Notes under the pieces: generated by a model | What the model was told of the DNA's origin: nothing | The model's database searches: none | What the model saw: the letters and a program-made list of their open reading frames with translations, nothing else | Translations under genes and position numbers: made by a program | Assembly: GCA_002742765.1 (NCBI GenBank) | Contig: DLUF01000095.1 | Location: 1-32,044, forward strand | Length of the DNA: 32,044 nt | Reading direction: 5' to 3' | From: Sulfurospirillum sp. UBA12182 | GTDB taxonomy: Bacteria; Campylobacterota; Campylobacteria; Campylobacterales; Sulfurospirillaceae | Shown here: in pieces, positions 20,381 through 31,452 of the stretch | Position numbering within the stretch: the first letter of the stretch is position 1 | Layout: every line of letters starts with the position of its first letter

Positions 20381-23002
20381 TTACAAAGATGAAACTCTAT
20401 TTCTTCCTGTATTTTTTGCTATATACAAAGCTTTATCTACTCTTAGAAAAATGCTATCTTCATCATCACTTGTTTCGTATTTGGCTACACCAAAGCTCAT
20501 CGTACAGGTAATATCTAAACCAAATTTATAGTCTTGAATCTTTTGACGAATTTTCTCTGCTAACAAAAGAGTATCTTCTTTAGTTGTATTTGGACAAATG
20601 ATGAGAAACTCTTCTCCACCCCATCGACCAAAAACATCACTTTCTCTTATGTTATCTTTAACCAGTCTTACTATATCTTTTAATATGCTATCACCAACCG
20701 TATGTCCATATGAATCATTTATATCTTTGAAAAAATCAATATCCATTAGAATGATTGAGAAAAAGTTATCTTTGTATCTGCGAACTCTAGATAATTCTAT
20801 TTTTAAACTTCTATCCAGATAAAGTCTGTTAAATATCTGTGTTAGCTGGTCAGTATGAGATATCTCTTCTATCCGCTTTTTATCTGTTATATCTGTTTGA
20901 AAGCTGCTATACCCTATCACTTCTCCATTTTGGGAAAAAGTGGGAGAAATCTGAGCATAAACCCAGTATGTAGCTCCATCTTTCTTGATATTTTTTAGCT
21001 CTCCCTCCCCAGCTTGATTTTTTGTTATCTTAGATAAACACTCTTTAGACTGACAAAAAGACATATCTGAGTGTCTTAACATCTTCTCTGATTTACCGAT
21101 TAATTCATGTTTTTTGTAGCCAGACAATTCACATAAAGCTTCACTTACATCTATGATAATACCTTTTTTATCAGTATGCAAAAACAAAACATACTTGTCG
21201 ATAACCTCTAAATTTTTCTTTATCTGAAGATTATATCTATGTACAACACTATATCGATAACCAAAAAAGAGAAATAAAAGCCCAAAAACGATAACAATCT
21301 TCCAAAATAACGAGTAGTCAAATCCATTTTCATACTTTATATTTACCCATTTGTTTGTTATGGCTTGTCTTTTGTTTTCATCTATATTTTCAAGAGCTTT
21401 TTCTAAGATACCAAGTAAAACGGGTTCATCATTTCTTACTGCAAATCCTAGTTCAAAAGACTGCGGTATCTTTCCTCCAATTTTTAGTACATTTAGATAC
21501 TCTTTTTGTATGACATAGCCTATCGTAATCAAACTATCAAGAAATCCATAAATCTCACCCTTTGCTACTTTTTCTAAACCTTCTTCTACACTTTAAACTT
21601 CAACCAATCGTATCGTTGGGTACTCAAGCTTTAAAAGTTCTCCAAATGAATAGCCTTTTACAACACCTATTTTTTCTTTTAAAATCTCTCTGATATCAGT
21701 TACAAAAAATTCATCTGTTTTTGTTGCCAAGACCAAAGGAGCTATCAAATAAGGTTTTGAAAAATTCATATATTTTTTACGTTCAGGAGTTGGCATAGCC
21801 AATGAGAGGATATCACATTTTCTCTCTTTAGCAAACTTCAAAGATTCTTCCCAATCAGCAGTTGGAACAAGAGTAAAAGATGTTCCTATTGTTTTTTGTA
21901 CTAACTCCAGATAATCAACACTTATACCCATAAGTTTTCCATTTTCTATCTGTTCTAAAGGCATCCAGTGAGGGTCTGAACAGACTTTTATCTCTCCTTT
22001 ATGATCCAAATACTCTCTTTCTTCTTTTGTAAGTTCTCCAAAGTTATTAAGCACAAAACTCTCGATTTTTATCTGTTTAGAGATAAAACCCATGACATTG
22101 TATAAATCATAGATTCTTTGTAACTTATTTTTTTCAATCTTTCCCAATGTTTCTGTCCGATAAAACGAGAGTTTTTTAAGTTCTTCTCCCTCATAACTCA
22201 AAGCTTCTTTTGATAATTTTTGGGAATTATACTTTTCAAAAATAACATCTACACTTTCGTCGATATGAGAATAGGCATATTGCCATCCTTTGAGAGAAGC
22301 TTCCTTAAAAGCAATAACCATATCGTGGTTCTCTTTTATAAGTTTTTCACTTGTAAAAAGAAAGTCACTATACATATCAAAACCATGCTCACTTGGACTA
22401 AAAACTCTATATGGAATATTTTGTTGCTTCAAATCAAAAGGAGCTTTTGAGATATACGCTGAGATGATATCTACTTTTTCATCTACCAAATCTTGGATAT
22501 TATGAGAATGCTCTATAAAAGTGTATGCCTTGTTGCTAAGATGTGAAGCATTGAACATGGCTTTTAAAGAAACTTCAGAAGAGTCATCAATAGTAGCCAT
22601 GATACGCTTACCCATAAAATCACGAATATAATTTATATTTGATGATTCTTTTGCGATGAGGATAAGAGGACTCACTTGAAACAGAGCATACAAAGCTACT
22701 ATACTTTTGCCACTAGCCCTCTCTAAGATAAGTGTTTCTCGACCAATTGCAAAATCAGTTTTTCCTTCTTCAACATCTTTAGGGATATCAAGACCAAACC
22801 TAAAAGGGATAATCTCAACATCAAATCCTGCATCTTTATAAAAGCCTTTCTCTTTTGCCATATAGTAACCAGCAAATTGGAATTGGTCAAACCAAGAGAG
22901 TTGTAAAGTTACTTTTTTAAGAGGAGGATTAGAAAAAGCATAAGAGACAAAAAACAGTACATGTAAAAACAAAATAATTAAAAACCGTGGTATCACTTTC
23001 AT
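20381..23002 (-). pseudogene. NMT1/SBP sensor-PAS-GGDEF diguanylate cyclase interrupted by one in-frame TAA
   Basis: One continuous frame of 874 codons broken by a single TAA at 21593-21595 (codon 470). The order is: signal peptide (1-25); an NMT1/THI5-like periplasmic domain (LQLSWFDQFQFAGYYMAKEKG; about 30-240); a bacterial solute-binding type 3 domain from about residue 335 (EIKVCSDPHWMPLEQIENGK), which contains the stop; a membrane helix (about 560-580); PAS; and GGDEF with RWGGEEF and an RESD product-inhibition site. The protein after the stop continues smoothly (SVEEGLEKVAKGEIYGFLDSL), so the gene was recently intact or the base is an error. As read, only a 469-residue secreted fragment is made, with no cyclase. 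The downstream part has only a TTG (21532) as a possible restart and would lack export. An intact form would turn a periplasmic small-molecule signal into cyclic-di-GMP. Confidence 0.88.
22958..22966. repeat. TACATGTAA palindrome, site 9
   Basis: Inside the signal peptide region of the sensor gene, read as L-H-V-L. Confidence 0.85.
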
Positions 23003-26691: not shown

Positions 26692-26697
26692 ATTGTA
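26692..26697 (-). promoter_or_regulatory. -10 box of the Tat-type NosL gene
   Basis: TACAAT on the minus strand, 29 nt before the start codon. The dyad at 26706-26741 covers its -35 region. Confidence 0.5.
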
Positions 26698-26705
26698 GAA
26701 AAGAA

Positions 26706-26741
26706 TTGTTAAATATCTGTTAATTAACAAACATTTAACAA
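26706..26741. promoter_or_regulatory. 36-bp dyad operator between divergent NosL genes
   Basis: A perfect 12-bp palindrome TGTTAATTAACA (26718-26729) is nested at the exact centre of a 9-bp inverted repeat TTGTTAAAT/ATTTAACAA (26706-26714, 26733-26741). In all, 16 of 18 base pairs are symmetric. GTTAA recurs 11 bp apart on one strand and TTAAC 11 bp apart on the other, so a regulator could bind on one DNA face as a tandem array. It sits over the -35 region of the minus-strand gene and about 20 bp before the plus-strand gene. Confidence 0.7.
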
Positions 26742-26761
26742 ATTTTGAGTAAACTTTTGCC

Positions 26762-27832
26762 ATGAAAAACTACCTTTTAATCCTCATCCTTCTTAGCAAT
26801 CTCCTAGCGAGTTATGACCCAAGGAATGCTCAAGCGATACAAGAGTACTTTAAAACTTCTTTTAGAGCAAAACTTTCTACTAACTCTTTACAAAGATATT
26901 ATAGTGATTTAAGTTCCCTTATCCTTGATGAAAAAGAGTATGGAATCAAAGATATCCAAGTAGTAGATTTTAAAACCTTAAAGTACATAGATGCAAAAAA
27001 AGCTTTTTATGTATATAAATCTCATATCAAAGCAAACTATGGAAAATACTCTCTTGTAGCCTTTGAAAATCAACAAGATGCTCTTTTACATGTAAAAAGA
27101 TATAAAGGAGAGATTATAGACTTTCAAGAAGCCTTACATGTAAAGAGTAAAACCATCCAATCAGATAGTACCTTTATGCAAAAAAGATATAAGAAAAGAG
27201 CTATTCCTATGGGGAAAAAACTCTATGAAAAGCTCTGTAAAGAAGAGCTTGATGTAAGTGAATACCTAGAGATAAGTGATTTAAAAACAGACCTTGAAGA
27301 AGAGAGTTTATGTGGTACATTAGAAAAAGAGTATTTAGAAGCACTTACTCTTTATCTTTGGTATGTAAAACGTAAAGGGGACTTAGGGATAGTAGAGGGA
27401 CAAATAGAAGTAAATGATGAAGAGAAATGTCCAGTATGTGGAATGTTTGTATATAAATACCCTAAATGGGCAGCACAGATTTTTTATAAACATGAAGACC
27501 ATGAACATCACTTCTCTTTTGATGGAGTAAAAGATTTGATAAAGTTTTACCATGAATCACAAAGATGGGGAAACTATCCTTTTGCAACACAAGCAAATAT
27601 CACAAAAATCCTAGTAACAGACTATTATACAAGTAAAGGTATAGATGGCTTTAATGCTTATTATGTGATAGGTAGTGATATCTATGGTCCTATGGGACAT
27701 GAACCTATACCTTTTGAGCATGAAGAAGATGCTATCACTTTTAAAAACGAACACAGAGGAGTAAAGGTTCTTCCTTTCAAAGAACTCTCCAAAGAACTCC
27801 CTTATAATCTTGATGTTGGAAAGTTTGATTAA
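26762..27832 (+). CDS. Two-part NosL-family protein (degenerate first NosL unit, two-Cys module, full NosL)
   Basis: A 356-residue protein with an N-terminal signal peptide (about 1-17). Residues 65-200 resemble the C-terminal part of the divergent NosL protein: an AFYVYKS segment, then MGKKLYEKLC (Cys 159) and SLCG (Cys 184). There is no metal-binding CxxC in this first unit. Residues 215-350 form a complete NosL domain, with C-P-V-C-G-M at 223-228, a His-rich patch (HEDHEHH, 244-250), and AYYVIGSDIYGPMGHEPIPF. A copper-binding or copper-handing role is likely. There is no clear ribosome-binding site; a TAAACT box ends 6 nt before the ATG. Its end overlaps the convergent NosL gene by 4 bp. 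Two TACATGTAA sites occur 50 bp apart inside it. Confidence 0.82.
   Translation: MKNYLLILILLSNLLASYDPRNAQAIQEYFKTSFRAKLSTNSLQRYYSDLSSLILDEKEYGIKDIQVVDFKTLKYIDAKKAFYVYKSHIKANYGKYSLVAFENQQDALLHVKRYKGEIIDFQEALHVKSKTIQSDSTFMQKRYKKRAIPMGKKLYEKLCKEELDVSEYLEISDLKTDLEEESLCGTLEKEYLEALTLYLWYVKRKGDLGIVEGQIEVNDEEKCPVCGMFVYKYPKWAAQIFYKHEDHEHHFSFDGVKDLIKFYHESQRWGNYPFATQANITKILVTDYYTSKGIDGFNAYYVIGSDIYGPMGHEPIPFEHEEDAITFKNEHRGVKVLPFKELSKELPYNLDVGKFD
27085..27096. repeat. TACATGTAA palindrome, site 11 (perfect 12-mer)
   Basis: A perfect TTTACATGTAAA, read as L-H-V-K in the two-part NosL gene. Confidence 0.85.
27135..27143. repeat. TACATGTAA palindrome, site 12
   Basis: Read as L-H-V-K, 48-50 bp after site 11 in the same gene. 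Confidence 0.85.
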
Positions 27833-28323
27833 GCTCCTAAGATATGTTTTCGTATCAAAGGATTGAGCAAATGCTCTCCTCTTAACATCTTTATCCTCAT
27901 CTCTTCAAAGTTGATAGAGCCCTCTTGTGGCTCTTTATAAGCTTTAAAACCATATTCCATTGGTGTTTTCTCATCTATACGGAAAAATGCTTCGCGCATA
28001 TCTATATATGATTTTACATCATGAGCATATACCCAAAGTTTCAAAGAGTTTATATCTATCTTTTGGTCTCTTGCCCACAAAATCAAACAACCAGGATCAT
28101 CAAAAAAATGAGTTTTATTTTCTTTGTCGATAGCTTGCGCGGTGTGTTCTTTGCCTACTAAGTACATGTAACACTGAGGACATTGGATTTTGTTATCTTG
28201 AAACTCCAAAGCTACCCCATCTTTGTTGTCAATCTCTCGTAAATCGAGATTTTGAGTATATTTTATATAAGCCACAAGGCAAAGTGCCACCAATGGGAAA
28301 AAGATTAAAACAAATTTTTTCAA
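27829..28323 (-). CDS. NosL family protein (classical type), membrane-anchored
   Basis: A 164-residue protein with an N-terminal membrane anchor (about 4-21) that has no lipobox Cys placement. The NosL core has C-P-Q-C-Y-M at 48-53, THFFDDPGCLILW near 71-83, LWVYAHD and the family hallmark TPMEYGF near 120. Of the three NosL-like proteins in the window it is closest to the NosL of N2O reductase clusters. It probably binds Cu(I) on the periplasmic side. It is the last gene of a five-gene operon and overlaps the preceding membrane-protein gene by 4 bp (ATGA). Its tail overlaps the convergent NosL gene by 4 bp (TTAA). Confidence 0.88.
   Translation of the reverse strand: MKKFVLIFFPLVALCLVAYIKYTQNLDLREIDNKDGVALEFQDNKIQCPQCYMYLVGKEHTAQAIDKENKTHFFDDPGCLILWARDQKIDINSLKLWVYAHDVKSYIDMREAFFRIDEKTPMEYGFKAYKEPQEGSINFEEMRIKMLRGEHLLNPLIRKHILGA
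28163..28171. repeat. TACATGTAA palindrome, site 13
   Basis: Inside the classical NosL gene, covering the C-Y-M-Y codons of its metal-binding motif. Confidence 0.85.
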
Positions 28324-29285
28324 AGCCAGACTCCATTTCTAAGGAAGTATATAAGAGGATAAGCACTCACAAGAAGAGTAAAAAGGATTGTAAAAACAAA
28401 GGAGATATTGTAAAGTTTTTTAGAAACTTGTTCTTGTGTCAGTAAAGCTATGATACCTCCTGAAAAGGAAAAAAATGTAGCACAAAAGAGTGTTACATAG
28501 ATAAGATAGCCAACATAGTAGTAATCTTTTTGCAAGAAGCAAAAAGGACAGTGATGTGTTGGCAGTTCATAGATATATGTTCCAAAGAAGAGTATCAAAG
28601 AGATGATAGAGATGATAAGAAATAAAACACTACTTCCTATCCCCATACTTGCTGATTTAGTATATAAAGTTATAAGATGCAAGGCAAAGAGGGAGTAAAA
28701 AAGGAGTAGTGTTTGGTAATTTTCAAGTTCAAATATCAAAGAGAGAGATGAGCTTGTTGCAGCTGAGAAGAGTGTTCCACAGCAGCTTACTATCTTATCT
28801 ATATCCAAGGAGTTAAAAAATCCAAATTCATAAAAGACTTCTATGAGCAAGAAGAGGTATCCTAAGATAAAGAGGATAAACTTCTTTTTAGTTAAGGCTC
28901 GTTTTTCATCTTTTAAATCTTTTACATGTAAGACTAGCCATAGACCAAAGAGGTAGAGGTTTATCAGTTTCAAGATAAGTAGATACATCCCAAAGCTTAC
29001 AGAGTTTACTACTCCTGCTGCGCACATGGCTCCTGTGATAACTCCTGAGATTTTATCACTAGTAAAGATAAAAAATAAAAACAGTGGCAGTTTTAAGAAG
29101 AAGATATATTTTACAAAGGTTGCAACTAAAACAGCTCTTTTTTCTAGGGTGTATTGAAAAGAAGTTGTAGCATTCATATCCCAAGAGCGAACGATAGAGA
29201 TACTTAAAATCACGCACAAGGTTGCTAGGATTAAGAACAGAGCATCCAAAGCTAGAAGTGTTATCACTTCTGGCGTGTAGGTCAT
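28320..29285 (-). CDS. Polytopic membrane protein with CC and CPFC motifs
   Basis: A 321-residue protein with about eight or nine membrane helices. I do not recognise a named family. Cysteine motifs lie next to the membrane: GAMCAAGVVNS (Cys 88), SCCG (168-169) and HHCPFCFLQKDYYYVGY (Cys 246 and 249, with two His before). The last resembles the quinone-linked thiol motif of DsbB/VKOR-type proteins only in outline. Thiol exchange or soft-metal binding would both fit beside NosL and an ABC transporter. It overlaps the ATPase gene upstream and the NosL gene downstream by 4 bp each. Confidence 0.75.
   Translation of the reverse strand: MTYTPEVITLLALDALFLILATLCVILSISIVRSWDMNATTSFQYTLEKRAVLVATFVKYIFFLKLPLFLFFIFTSDKISGVITGAMCAAGVVNSVSFGMYLLILKLINLYLFGLWLVLHVKDLKDEKRALTKKKFILFILGYLFLLIEVFYEFGFFNSLDIDKIVSCCGTLFSAATSSSLSLIFELENYQTLLLFYSLFALHLITLYTKSASMGIGSSVLFLIISIISLILFFGTYIYELPTHHCPFCFLQKDYYYVGYLIYVTLFCATFFSFSGGIIALLTQEQVSKKLYNISFVFTILFTLLVSAYPLIYFLRNGVWL
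28921..28932. repeat. TACATGTAA palindrome, site 14
   Basis: TTTACATGTAAG inside the polytopic membrane protein gene, read as L-H-V-K on the minus strand. Confidence 0.85.
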
Positions 29286-29938
29286 AGAATTACTCCTTTT
29301 TTCATTTGGATTATCTTATCTATAAAATCCAAATCAAAGAAGAGATTATCATGGGTTGCTACGATGATAGTTTTCCCCTCTTCTTTGAGTGCTTTTAAGT
29401 AGAGGATAAAATCTTGTGAGAGTTTTTCATCTAAGTTTGCTGTTGGTTCATCTGCTATGATAATTCTAGGTTCATTGATGAGTGCTCTGGCGATAACTAC
29501 TCTTTGTTGTTCTCCTCCTGAGAGTTTTTTAACGAGTACATCTCTTTTCTCTTCTATATCAAAGCGTTTTAAGAGAGCCTCACATCTTTGGTCTATGATA
29601 GACTCTTCTAAGTTTGAGGGGATAAGGGGTGTTATGATATTCTCTTTTACACTCAGGTTTTCTATGAGGTTAAACTTTTGAAAGATAAATCCTATATGCT
29701 CTCTTCGAAAGAGTGATGCAAAATCATCAGGAAGCTTTGAGATATGTTTATTAAAGACAACTACTTCTCCACTACTTGGTTTACTAAGTCCTGCTAGTAA
29801 AGAGAGGATAGTACTTTTTCCACTTCCACTTGCTCCTTTGAGCAAAACAAGTTCTCCTTGTTTGATATGGAAGTTTATATCTTTAAGGGCATAAAAGTCA
29901 TTTGCAAAAATTTTATTTACATTTTTAAATGTTATCAT
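29282..29938 (-). CDS. ABC transporter ATP-binding protein (LolD/MacB type)
   Basis: A 218-residue ATPase with Walker A GASGSGKS (35-42), Q-loop FIFQKFNLIENLSV near 85-97, signature LSGGEQQR (139-146), Walker B IIIADEPTANLD (159-170) and the switch His in VATHD. The sequence style matches the LolD/MacB/FtsE group, which works with FtsX-type permeases that move lipoproteins or act mechanically on periplasmic partners without classical import. It overlaps its permease by 4 bp. If that permease is truly broken, this ATPase has no partner in the window. Confidence 0.92.
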   Translation of the reverse strand: MITFKNVNKIFANDFYALKDINFHIKQGELVLLKGASGSGKSTILSLLAGLSKPSSGEVVVFNKHISKLPDDFASLFRREHIGFIFQKFNLIENLSVKENIITPLIPSNLEESIIDQRCEALLKRFDIEEKRDVLVKKLSGGEQQRVVIARALINEPRIIIADEPTANLDEKLSQDFILYLKALKEEGKTIIVATHDNLFFDLDFIDKIIQMKKGVIL

Positions 29939-31109
29939 CTTATTACCTCGTCTACATCACTTGAAGCTATCTTCCAAGAGGGGATAATGATAGCAGCTAG
30001 ATAGATAGGAACACTTAAGAAGAAGATGATACTAAGCATCCCAAAATCTAGGGTAAAGGGAAGTTCAAACGAAGGTTTTAGGATGGAGTATCCACTAAAT
30101 ATATCTCTTAGGAGTGGTGCTTGGAGGATATATACATAAAAGAGCGAAGTGATAAGTGCTATTAAAAAAGCACTAAAAGAGATGATAAAGGCTTCATAGA
30201 ATTTCCAAGCCAAGATATCATCTATTCTCCAGCCAAGTGCTTTTAAGATACCTATCTCTCTTTTTTCATGGCTACTTAGACCGCTTGCTCTATCATAGAT
30301 GATGATAAAGAAGGTAAAGATAGCTATAACAAACAAGGATAAGAAGAGTCCACTTTTATAATCAAAGATATTTTGGTAGCTCACTCTTATATCATCTTGG
30401 GTGATAACTCTACTATCTGGGTAAATCTGTTTTATTTTAGAGATGATGGAGGGAATTTCATTTTTATTTGGTACTTCTAGGACGATATCTGTTGCGTAGT
30501 TTGTTTGCATATCAAAAATCTCTTTTACCAACTCTTTTGGCATAAAAATCATATCATTAGATTCTAGGTTAGTGTTTGTGTCAAATACACCTATAACATC
30601 TACTCTTTTTAAGCTTCCATCACTTTTTACGAAGTTAAAGTATTCGTTATAGTAGTTTTGGTTGAAAATCTCTCTAACACCTTTTCCTACTACCATCCCC
30701 TCTTTATCTAGTTTAGGAGTTTGTAGCAAGTTATCTAGTGTTTTAGAGTAGGCTTTATCATAGATATCTACTCCTACAACAGAGAAGTTCACTCCAGCGT
30801 TTGCGAAGTAGTAGTATCCCCAATATCTTGGGATAACGCTTTGGACTCCATTTATATCAAGCAAAGCATCTAAATGTTGAAGATCGATATTTTCATGTCG
30901 TCCTGCTTGGAGCTTTTGGATAGTGATTTGGGGTAAGGATTCTAAGGTTAATCTAATTCATACTTAATAGAGTTTGCTATAAAAAGCATACTTGAGAGTA
31001 AGAAGATAACTAACGAGAGTATAAAGAAGGTAAAAAAGCTTTTAAAGCCACTTCTTTTTAGAGAACTGAGGGCATAAGCTAAGAGATAGAGGTTTATTTT
31101 TTTATTCAC
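29935..31109 (-). pseudogene. ABC transporter permease (FtsX/MacB type) broken by a single-base frameshift
   Basis: The N-terminal part starts at GTG 31109 (AAGG 7 nt upstream). It encodes a first membrane helix (LYLLAYALSSLKRSGFKSFF, then FFILSLVIFLLSSMLF) and ends at TAA 30948-30950 after SIKYELD. In the neighbouring frame the protein goes on at once (RLTLESLPQITIQKLQAGRH, then the MacB-like periplasmic domain, and three more membrane helices ending SSDVDEVIR). Adding one base near 30950-30958 gives SIKYELRLTLESLPQ and a normal 391-residue permease. The lesion is not in a homopolymer, and I see no slippery site, so this is a recent mutation or a sequencing error. The start overlaps the upstream gene by 8 bp. 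Confidence 0.88.
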
Positions 31110-31401
31110 TTTGAAACCTTGAGCTATTTTTTAGGGAACTTGGAGCATAAACAAAGGTTGAGGGAAAGTACTCTAAGAGTTCTGGTGAGTTTGCAAACAC
31201 TGAAAAGGTATCTGCATAACTTCTATGTCTTATAAAGTGTGCCTCATTTGAAAGTGCCAAGTCTGGTAACGTTGAAAGTTTTACAAATGCCTTCTTGAAC
31301 TCTTCTTTATCATTTTGCTTGTACATGTAAAGACATTCTATACTCAAAATTACACATAAACAGCTTATCAAATATATATATCTCTTACTTCTTTGTTTCA
31401 T
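31102..31401 (-). CDS. Small membrane-anchored protein of the NosL/ABC operon, 99 aa
   Basis: I cannot name this 99-residue protein. A basic N-terminus (MKQRSKRY) and a hydrophobic stretch (about 9-26) suggest an anchor, with about 70 residues in the periplasm. The body has the segment LPDLALSNEAHFIRHRSYAD, then ELLEYFPSTFVYAPSS. It is the first gene of the operon and overlaps the permease start by 8 bp, so it is likely a dedicated partner. There is no ribosome-binding site. A TATAAT ends 7 nt before the ATG, suggesting a leaderless message. Confidence 0.72.
   Translation of the reverse strand: MKQRSKRYIYLISCLCVILSIECLYMYKQNDKEEFKKAFVKLSTLPDLALSNEAHFIRHRSYADTFSVFANSPELLEYFPSTFVYAPSSLKNSSRFQSE
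31322..31330. repeat. TACATGTAA palindrome, site 15
   Basis: Inside the 99-aa gene, read as Y-M-Y on the minus strand. Confidence 0.85.
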
Positions 31402-31408
31402 GAGGGAT

Positions 31409-31414
31409 ATTATA
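31409..31414 (-). promoter_or_regulatory. -10 box of the NosL/ABC operon
   Basis: A consensus TATAAT on the minus strand, 7 nt before the ATG at 31401. Transcription would begin at about the start codon. Confidence 0.5.
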
Positions 31415-31452
31415 CTTTCAAAGTGTTAAATTTTTATAAAAACAGACATTTT

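Follow-up and report, generated by a model that had tools for sequence, protein, structure and literature searches.

The described systems closest to the element studied here are the sites of HP1043 (HsrA) in Helicobacter pylori, CosR in Campylobacter jejuni and RR2 (PceP) in Sulfurospirillum. The box of HP1043 is a direct repeat of TTTAA-based hexamers, separated by 5 bp so that their centres are 11 bp apart, and it overlaps the promoters of activated genes (PMC5253667, PMC8345958). In C. jejuni, a dimer of CosR, an OmpR-family protein, binds a TTAAC and a TTAAG element at the cmeABC promoter; there the natural spacing is 10 bp and the outcome is repression of an efflux pump (PMC10936212). 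RR2, also of the OmpR family and from the bacterial family to which the present genome belongs, binds a direct repeat over the -35 region, but the repeat is CTATW-N17-CTATW and the genes are those of organohalide respiration (PMC7755780). Finally, CrdRS of H. pylori (HP1365-HP1364) provides an OmpR-like regulator of copper genes within the same phylum (PMC9449129); a binding sequence for CrdR was not found in the literature searched.

The locus compared here with these systems lies on a stretch of 32,044 nucleotides from Sulfurospirillum sp. UBA12182, referred to as the window (Table 1). Between two divergent genes for NosL proteins, which resemble copper chaperones, positions 26706-26741 read TTGTTAAATATCTGTTAATTAACAAACATTTAACAA, in which 16 of the 18 pairs are symmetric, and the centre, TGTTAATTAACA (26718-26729), is a perfect 12-bp dyad. 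GTTAA occurs at 26708 and 26719 and TTAAC at 26724 and 26735, 11 bp apart within each pair. A sequence-only reading of the window had pointed to a nested 36-bp dyad of this kind, made of a palindrome and an outer repeat, and to the 11-bp recurrence of the two pentamers; the letters agree with it on both. It had also placed the dyad over the -35 region of one gene, which was too narrow, as the -35 regions of both genes are covered.

How much weight can the symmetry bear? The dyad is the top-scoring of all centres in the window, the runner-up having 13 of 18 pairs. First-order Markov simulations of the 99-bp intergenic region reached 16/18 once in 5000, and none of 40 simulations of the whole window did so (best, 15). 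Given the scores of the other centres and of the simulated intergenic regions, the symmetry alone is unlikely to be due to chance. The 12-bp palindrome by itself is weak evidence, with 0.36 matches expected per window at no more than one mismatch. The motif GTTAA-N6-GTTAA alone is not enriched in the window's genome (12 matches vs. 10 for the reversed control), and the only two of these matches that are paired head to head are those in the dyad. The case for the dyad is made by conservation, beyond symmetry.

Table 1. Coordinates of the features discussed (positions in the window; a dot marks a feature assigned to neither strand).
Feature	Position	Strand	Evidence
36-bp dyad, two abutting inverted half-sites	26706..26741	.	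16/18 symmetric; kept in six other genomes
Half-site, left NosL promoter, ATTAACAGATATTTAAC on the - strand	26708..26724	-	Weight matrix from other genomes, 34.3 bits; pattern match
Half-site, right NosL promoter, ATTAACAAACATTTAAC	26723..26739	+	Weight matrix, 28.3 bits; pattern match
Inferred -10 element TACAAT, left gene	26692..26697	-	Outer repeat 10 bp away; spacing kept in relatives
Inferred -10 element TAAACT, right gene, 6 nt 5' of ATG	26750..26755	+	Outer repeat 10 bp away; spacing kept in relatives
NosL-domain protein, 238 aa	25946..26662	-	Pfam NosL, E 9e-16
NosL-domain protein, 356 aa, two NosL stretches	26762..27832	+	Pfam NosL, E 3.5e-41
Weaker third box, first repeat degenerate, with TATAAT, before operon 31401 -> 27829	31409..31441	-	Weight matrix, 16.4 bits
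Operon-like stretch: small protein, FtsX permease, ABC ATPase, membrane protein, NosL-like protein	27829..31401	-	ORFs; Pfam FtsX

The right-hand NosL protein was used as query in 150 related genomes, the closest relative with a name being Sulfurospirillum sp. UBA6810 (L043). Lack of conservation beside the same gene pair had been named in advance as the observation that would speak against the dyad. The comparison showed it to be kept at divergent NosL pairs in six genomes, with 12-18 symmetric pairs out of 18 (G001, 18; G005, G011 and G023, 17 each; G002, 14; G028, 12). In G011 and G023 the centre is ATTAATTAAT in place of GTTAATTAAC, both arms having changed symmetrically. The half-sites are kept in G008 and G014 where the intact dyad is not, the two units of the divergent pair are separated in G021, and the box is absent from the divergent NosL pair of G009.

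Where a relative's NosL gene is not part of a divergent pair, a single half-site occupies the same place, its distance to the -10 element unchanged. Typically this unit is TTTAACACTAATTTAACA, followed by 10 bp and a -10-like TANACT. Because such units stand alone at non-divergent genes, with one unit per gene, and lie apart in G021, we regard the dyad as two head-to-head promoter boxes: two abutting inverted copies of the half-site TTTAAC-N5-TTTAAC, an 11-bp direct repeat. The tandem spacing of the OmpR type proposed earlier thus turns out to be the true unit, as the lone half-sites in relatives indicate. The near-perfect symmetry and the overlap of both -35 regions would also suit a classical operator of a symmetric repressor (e.g., of the TetR, MarR or CRP/FNR type). 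However, the isolated direct-repeat half-sites at non-divergent promoters speak against a single palindromic operator, the half-sites of the divergent pair in G021 lie apart, and the TTAAC-N4-GTTAA site of the NssR type is not present; we consider a repressor of this kind highly improbable.

In tandem boxes of the OmpR/PhoB type, a direct repeat of about one helical turn overlaps the -35 region of activated promoters. Both features are found here: the repeats are 11 bp apart, and the -35 region is overlapped at both promoters, as judged from the inferred -10 elements. On the strength of these comparisons of sequence, we think it likely that the dyad comprises head-to-head sites of one OmpR/PhoB-family response regulator that activates both promoters, that it is part of a copper regulon, and that the regulator belongs to the clade of L081, L084 and L098, encoded in the window's genome. 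The half-site would take the -35 position, with the -10 element 10 bp further on, and a regulator dimer bound to it would make up for the lack of a -35 hexamer, thereby activating the gene. Both NosL genes would then respond to one signal, presumably copper and perhaps copper limitation, and the half-site would mark a wider copper-handling regulon in Sulfurospirillum-like bacteria and their relatives. The suggestion that one regulator could control both genes is well supported by inference from the conservation and the shared half-site. The inner hexamers of the two half-sites share two bases, and the offset between the inner repeats is about 5 bp. At that offset a pair of dimers would lie on more or less opposite sides of the helix, and joint binding or competition may result; since the inner repeats overlap, the dimers may not bind simultaneously.

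Only 6 nt separate the inferred -10 element of the right NosL gene from the ATG, as in relatives and at several box-preceded regulator genes, and the layout at the third box is similar (7 nt; 31401-31414). From this short distance, the mRNAs of the right NosL gene, of its counterparts in relatives and of these regulators may be leaderless.

As the bare GTTAA-N6-GTTAA was not enriched in the window's genome, the distance to the -10 element was added to the pattern. The composite box, TTAAC-N5-WTTAAC-N10-TANNNT, has 124 matches in 60 related genomes, as against 16 for the reversed control. When both gaps were varied by one base in 19 genomes of the family, the 5/10 spacing gave 48 matches and the eight neighbouring spacings 2 to 10 each (mean, 5.4); for the strict TTAACA form the 5/10 spacing gave 31 matches and all the other spacings combined gave 5. 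A spacer of 5 is strongly preferred over 4 or 6, and a distance of 10 from repeat to -10 is preferred over 9 or 11. Only a few boxes are found per genome, and many genomes have none. These counts bear on the idea that the repeats merely reflect the AT-rich periodicity usual in this group's sigma-70 promoters, for which one may cite the weak -35 of Campylobacter promoters and the TTTAAGTNTT-like -35 given in PMC7755780. The strict spacing, the small number of boxes, the bias of their targets to copper and the fact that G never follows TTAA in 33 NosL-promoter sites all go against it, and we give the idea hardly any credence.

A weight matrix built from the NosL promoters of further genomes, the window's genome being left out, finds three sites above 9 bits in the window, namely the two halves of the dyad and the site at 31409-31441 (scores in Table 1). 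When 20 shuffled windows were scanned on one strand, their top scores ranged from 2.4 to 15.4 bits. Taken alone, the third box is only suggestive; a better box stands at the equivalent position in G002 (L262). The last two genes of the stretch behind it (membrane protein and NosL-like protein) have no Pfam match and are named by similarity. The FtsX permease gene of this stretch seems frameshifted at about 30940-30960 (- strand), where the frame of the relatives continues in another frame; this appears to be either real or an assembly error of the draft genome. Elsewhere in the window, at 20381-23002 (- strand), an NMT1/SBP_bac_3 protein breaks off early within the SBP domain, and the ORF that follows, whose end is GGDEF-like, seems to be its continuation; the two are possibly one broken sensor gene.

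Which regulator binds the box? Its geometry is that of OmpR/PhoB-type sites and comes nearest to the HP1043 box, the TTTAA hexamers being likewise 5 bp apart, and the regulator might be the ortholog of CosR/HsrA (HP1043), the essential orphan of Campylobacterota, acting at an atypical site. HP1043 binds TTTAAG-N5-TTTAAG at promoters (PMC5253667), the C. jejuni CosR site joins one TTAAC, as in the NosL box, to one TTAAG (PMC10936212), and copper tolerance appears in a review's list of the CosR regulon (PMC9449129). The window's genome has a CosR ortholog whose DNA-binding domain is almost identical to those of C. jejuni CosR and HP1043. But for that very reason this CosR should prefer the G form. 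G is important as the sixth base of the first HP1043 element, whereas the NosL box has C there: the base following TTAA is C in 24, T in 8, A in 1 and G in 0 of the 33 NosL-promoter sites. Also, CosR is expected in every genome, whereas many genomes are without boxes. The target genes differ as well, and head-to-head pairing of two boxes, as in the NosL dyad, is not reported in the portions available of the HP1043 papers (PMC5253667, PMC8345958). We regard CosR as an unlikely regulator of the box.

The location of the boxes points to another group of response regulators. The box precedes the regulator's own gene in the cases of L208, L211 and L217; L278 and L280 are encoded beside NosL, and L288 beside a bd-like oxidase. 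All these group with L081, L084 and L098 of the window's genome (support 83/83), and the recognition helices in the L081/L084/L098 group look alike. CrdR may be homologous to this clade. One box-preceded regulator, L201, falls outside it. The number of sites correlates with the strength of the match to L084 (rho 0.57, the best of three regulators), a correlation confounded by phylogeny, and within the family L084 presence by itself does not reach significance. G009, whose divergent NosL pair lacks the box, is also without L084, L098 and L091 at the thresholds used. Searches of NCBIfam and PDB did not name the candidate regulators below the family level.

L091 is encoded just upstream of ccoN, and as the regulator of the box it would tie NosL to the cbb3 oxidase. 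It adjoins ccoN in nearly all genomes of the family, the ccoN promoter of the window's genome has a perfect TTTAAC-N5-TTTAAC, and match strength goes with site number in the family (rho 0.51). In relatives, however, the ccoN site is usually TTTAAC/T-N5-TTTAAT and lies about 31 bp from the -10; this difference in sequence and position moved L091 down from being our first answer. Also, the box-bearing genomes G044, G049, G050, G060 and G063 have no L091 match at threshold. We now think its involvement rather improbable. BumSR was considered as the ccoN-linked pair, on our assumption that it adjoins ccoN. The ccoN promoters (L106-L135) have a conserved element of approximately ATTTAACACAAATTTAATCTTATTAAGCTT, some 31 bp before TATAAT and beside a response-regulator/PAS-kinase pair; the element is similar to the NosL box, though it may represent a motif of its own. 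A member of the L081/L084/L098 clade, favoured over both CosR/HsrA and the ccoN-linked protein, is the most likely candidate regulator, judging by gene neighbourhood and phylogeny.

The genes behind the box belong mainly to copper handling if respiration genes are included (about 38 of 67 box-gene pairs by a hand count, some assigned by eye). They encode NosL, a copper-type TonB receptor, ExbB (in ExbB-ExbD-TonB operons), PCuAC, a CueO-like multicopper oxidase, MbnP and FtsX permeases, as well as a bd-like oxidase, weakly matched in Pfam, that has a cytochrome c at its C terminus. For the TonB-dependent receptor L221 the best model is the TonB copper receptor, at 190.9 bits, under the model's cut-off of 472. 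Other box-preceded genes are apparently unrelated to copper (sufB, secG, MoxR-like, polysaccharide deacetylase), and some matches will be due to chance. In the window's genome, the box is also found before the bd-like oxidase (C43) and a 159-aa protein (C67), an apparent homologue of which adjoins the NosL pair in G009 (L276). The search for the site before copper or oxidase genes, recommended by the sequence-only reading, found the same half-site there in related genomes. The box probably marks a copper-gene regulon shared among the Campylobacterota relatives.

Two types of gene linked to the box deserve description. Small membrane-anchored proteins of 157-159 aa are encoded at L196 1599-2075 (box-preceded in the window's genome, no Pfam match) and, near the NosL pair of G009, at L276 214-687, and a similar-looking one adjoins PCuAC in L270; these are possible copper-delivery proteins. 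The bd-like oxidase is encoded by two genes (L100 1580-7960; L288 3895-9180), with a cytochrome c domain at the end of the first subunit; it is box-preceded in several genomes and has two-component genes nearby.

A link to N2O, also raised earlier, does not appear to hold here. The NosL pair of G005 lies beside nosZ and a PAS kinase/response regulator pair (by Pfam and gene map), and, judged by sequence similarity, G002 and G008 are arranged in the same way. A search of the window's genome (98.8% complete) with the G005 NosZ, run without a positive control, gave no match. With no nosZ found, the part played by its NosL genes is probably that of copper supply at large; providing for the cbb3 oxidase, or for copper handling in general, is the more likely role. 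The presence of both copper import and the bd-like oxidase among the targets suggests that copper limitation is the signal. One may go further and tentatively imagine a hitherto undescribed copper-limitation regulon of Campylobacterota in which import (TonB receptor, ExbB-ExbD-TonB), periplasmic delivery (NosL, PCuAC, FtsX ABC) and a copper-free bd-like oxidase would be switched on together, while the overlapping NosL half-sites would split the occupancy of one regulator between two promoters.

In closing, elements of this kind are already known; the box, its head-to-head conservation and the regulon appear to be new, no description of the box having been found in a literature search that covered few subscription papers. 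In microaerophilic and N2O-consuming bacteria, copper supply is a limiting factor for cbb3 oxidases and N2O reductase. With the box defined, one obtains a list of genes that probably work jointly in copper handling, unannotated ones included, and the identity of the controlling regulator becomes a directly testable question.
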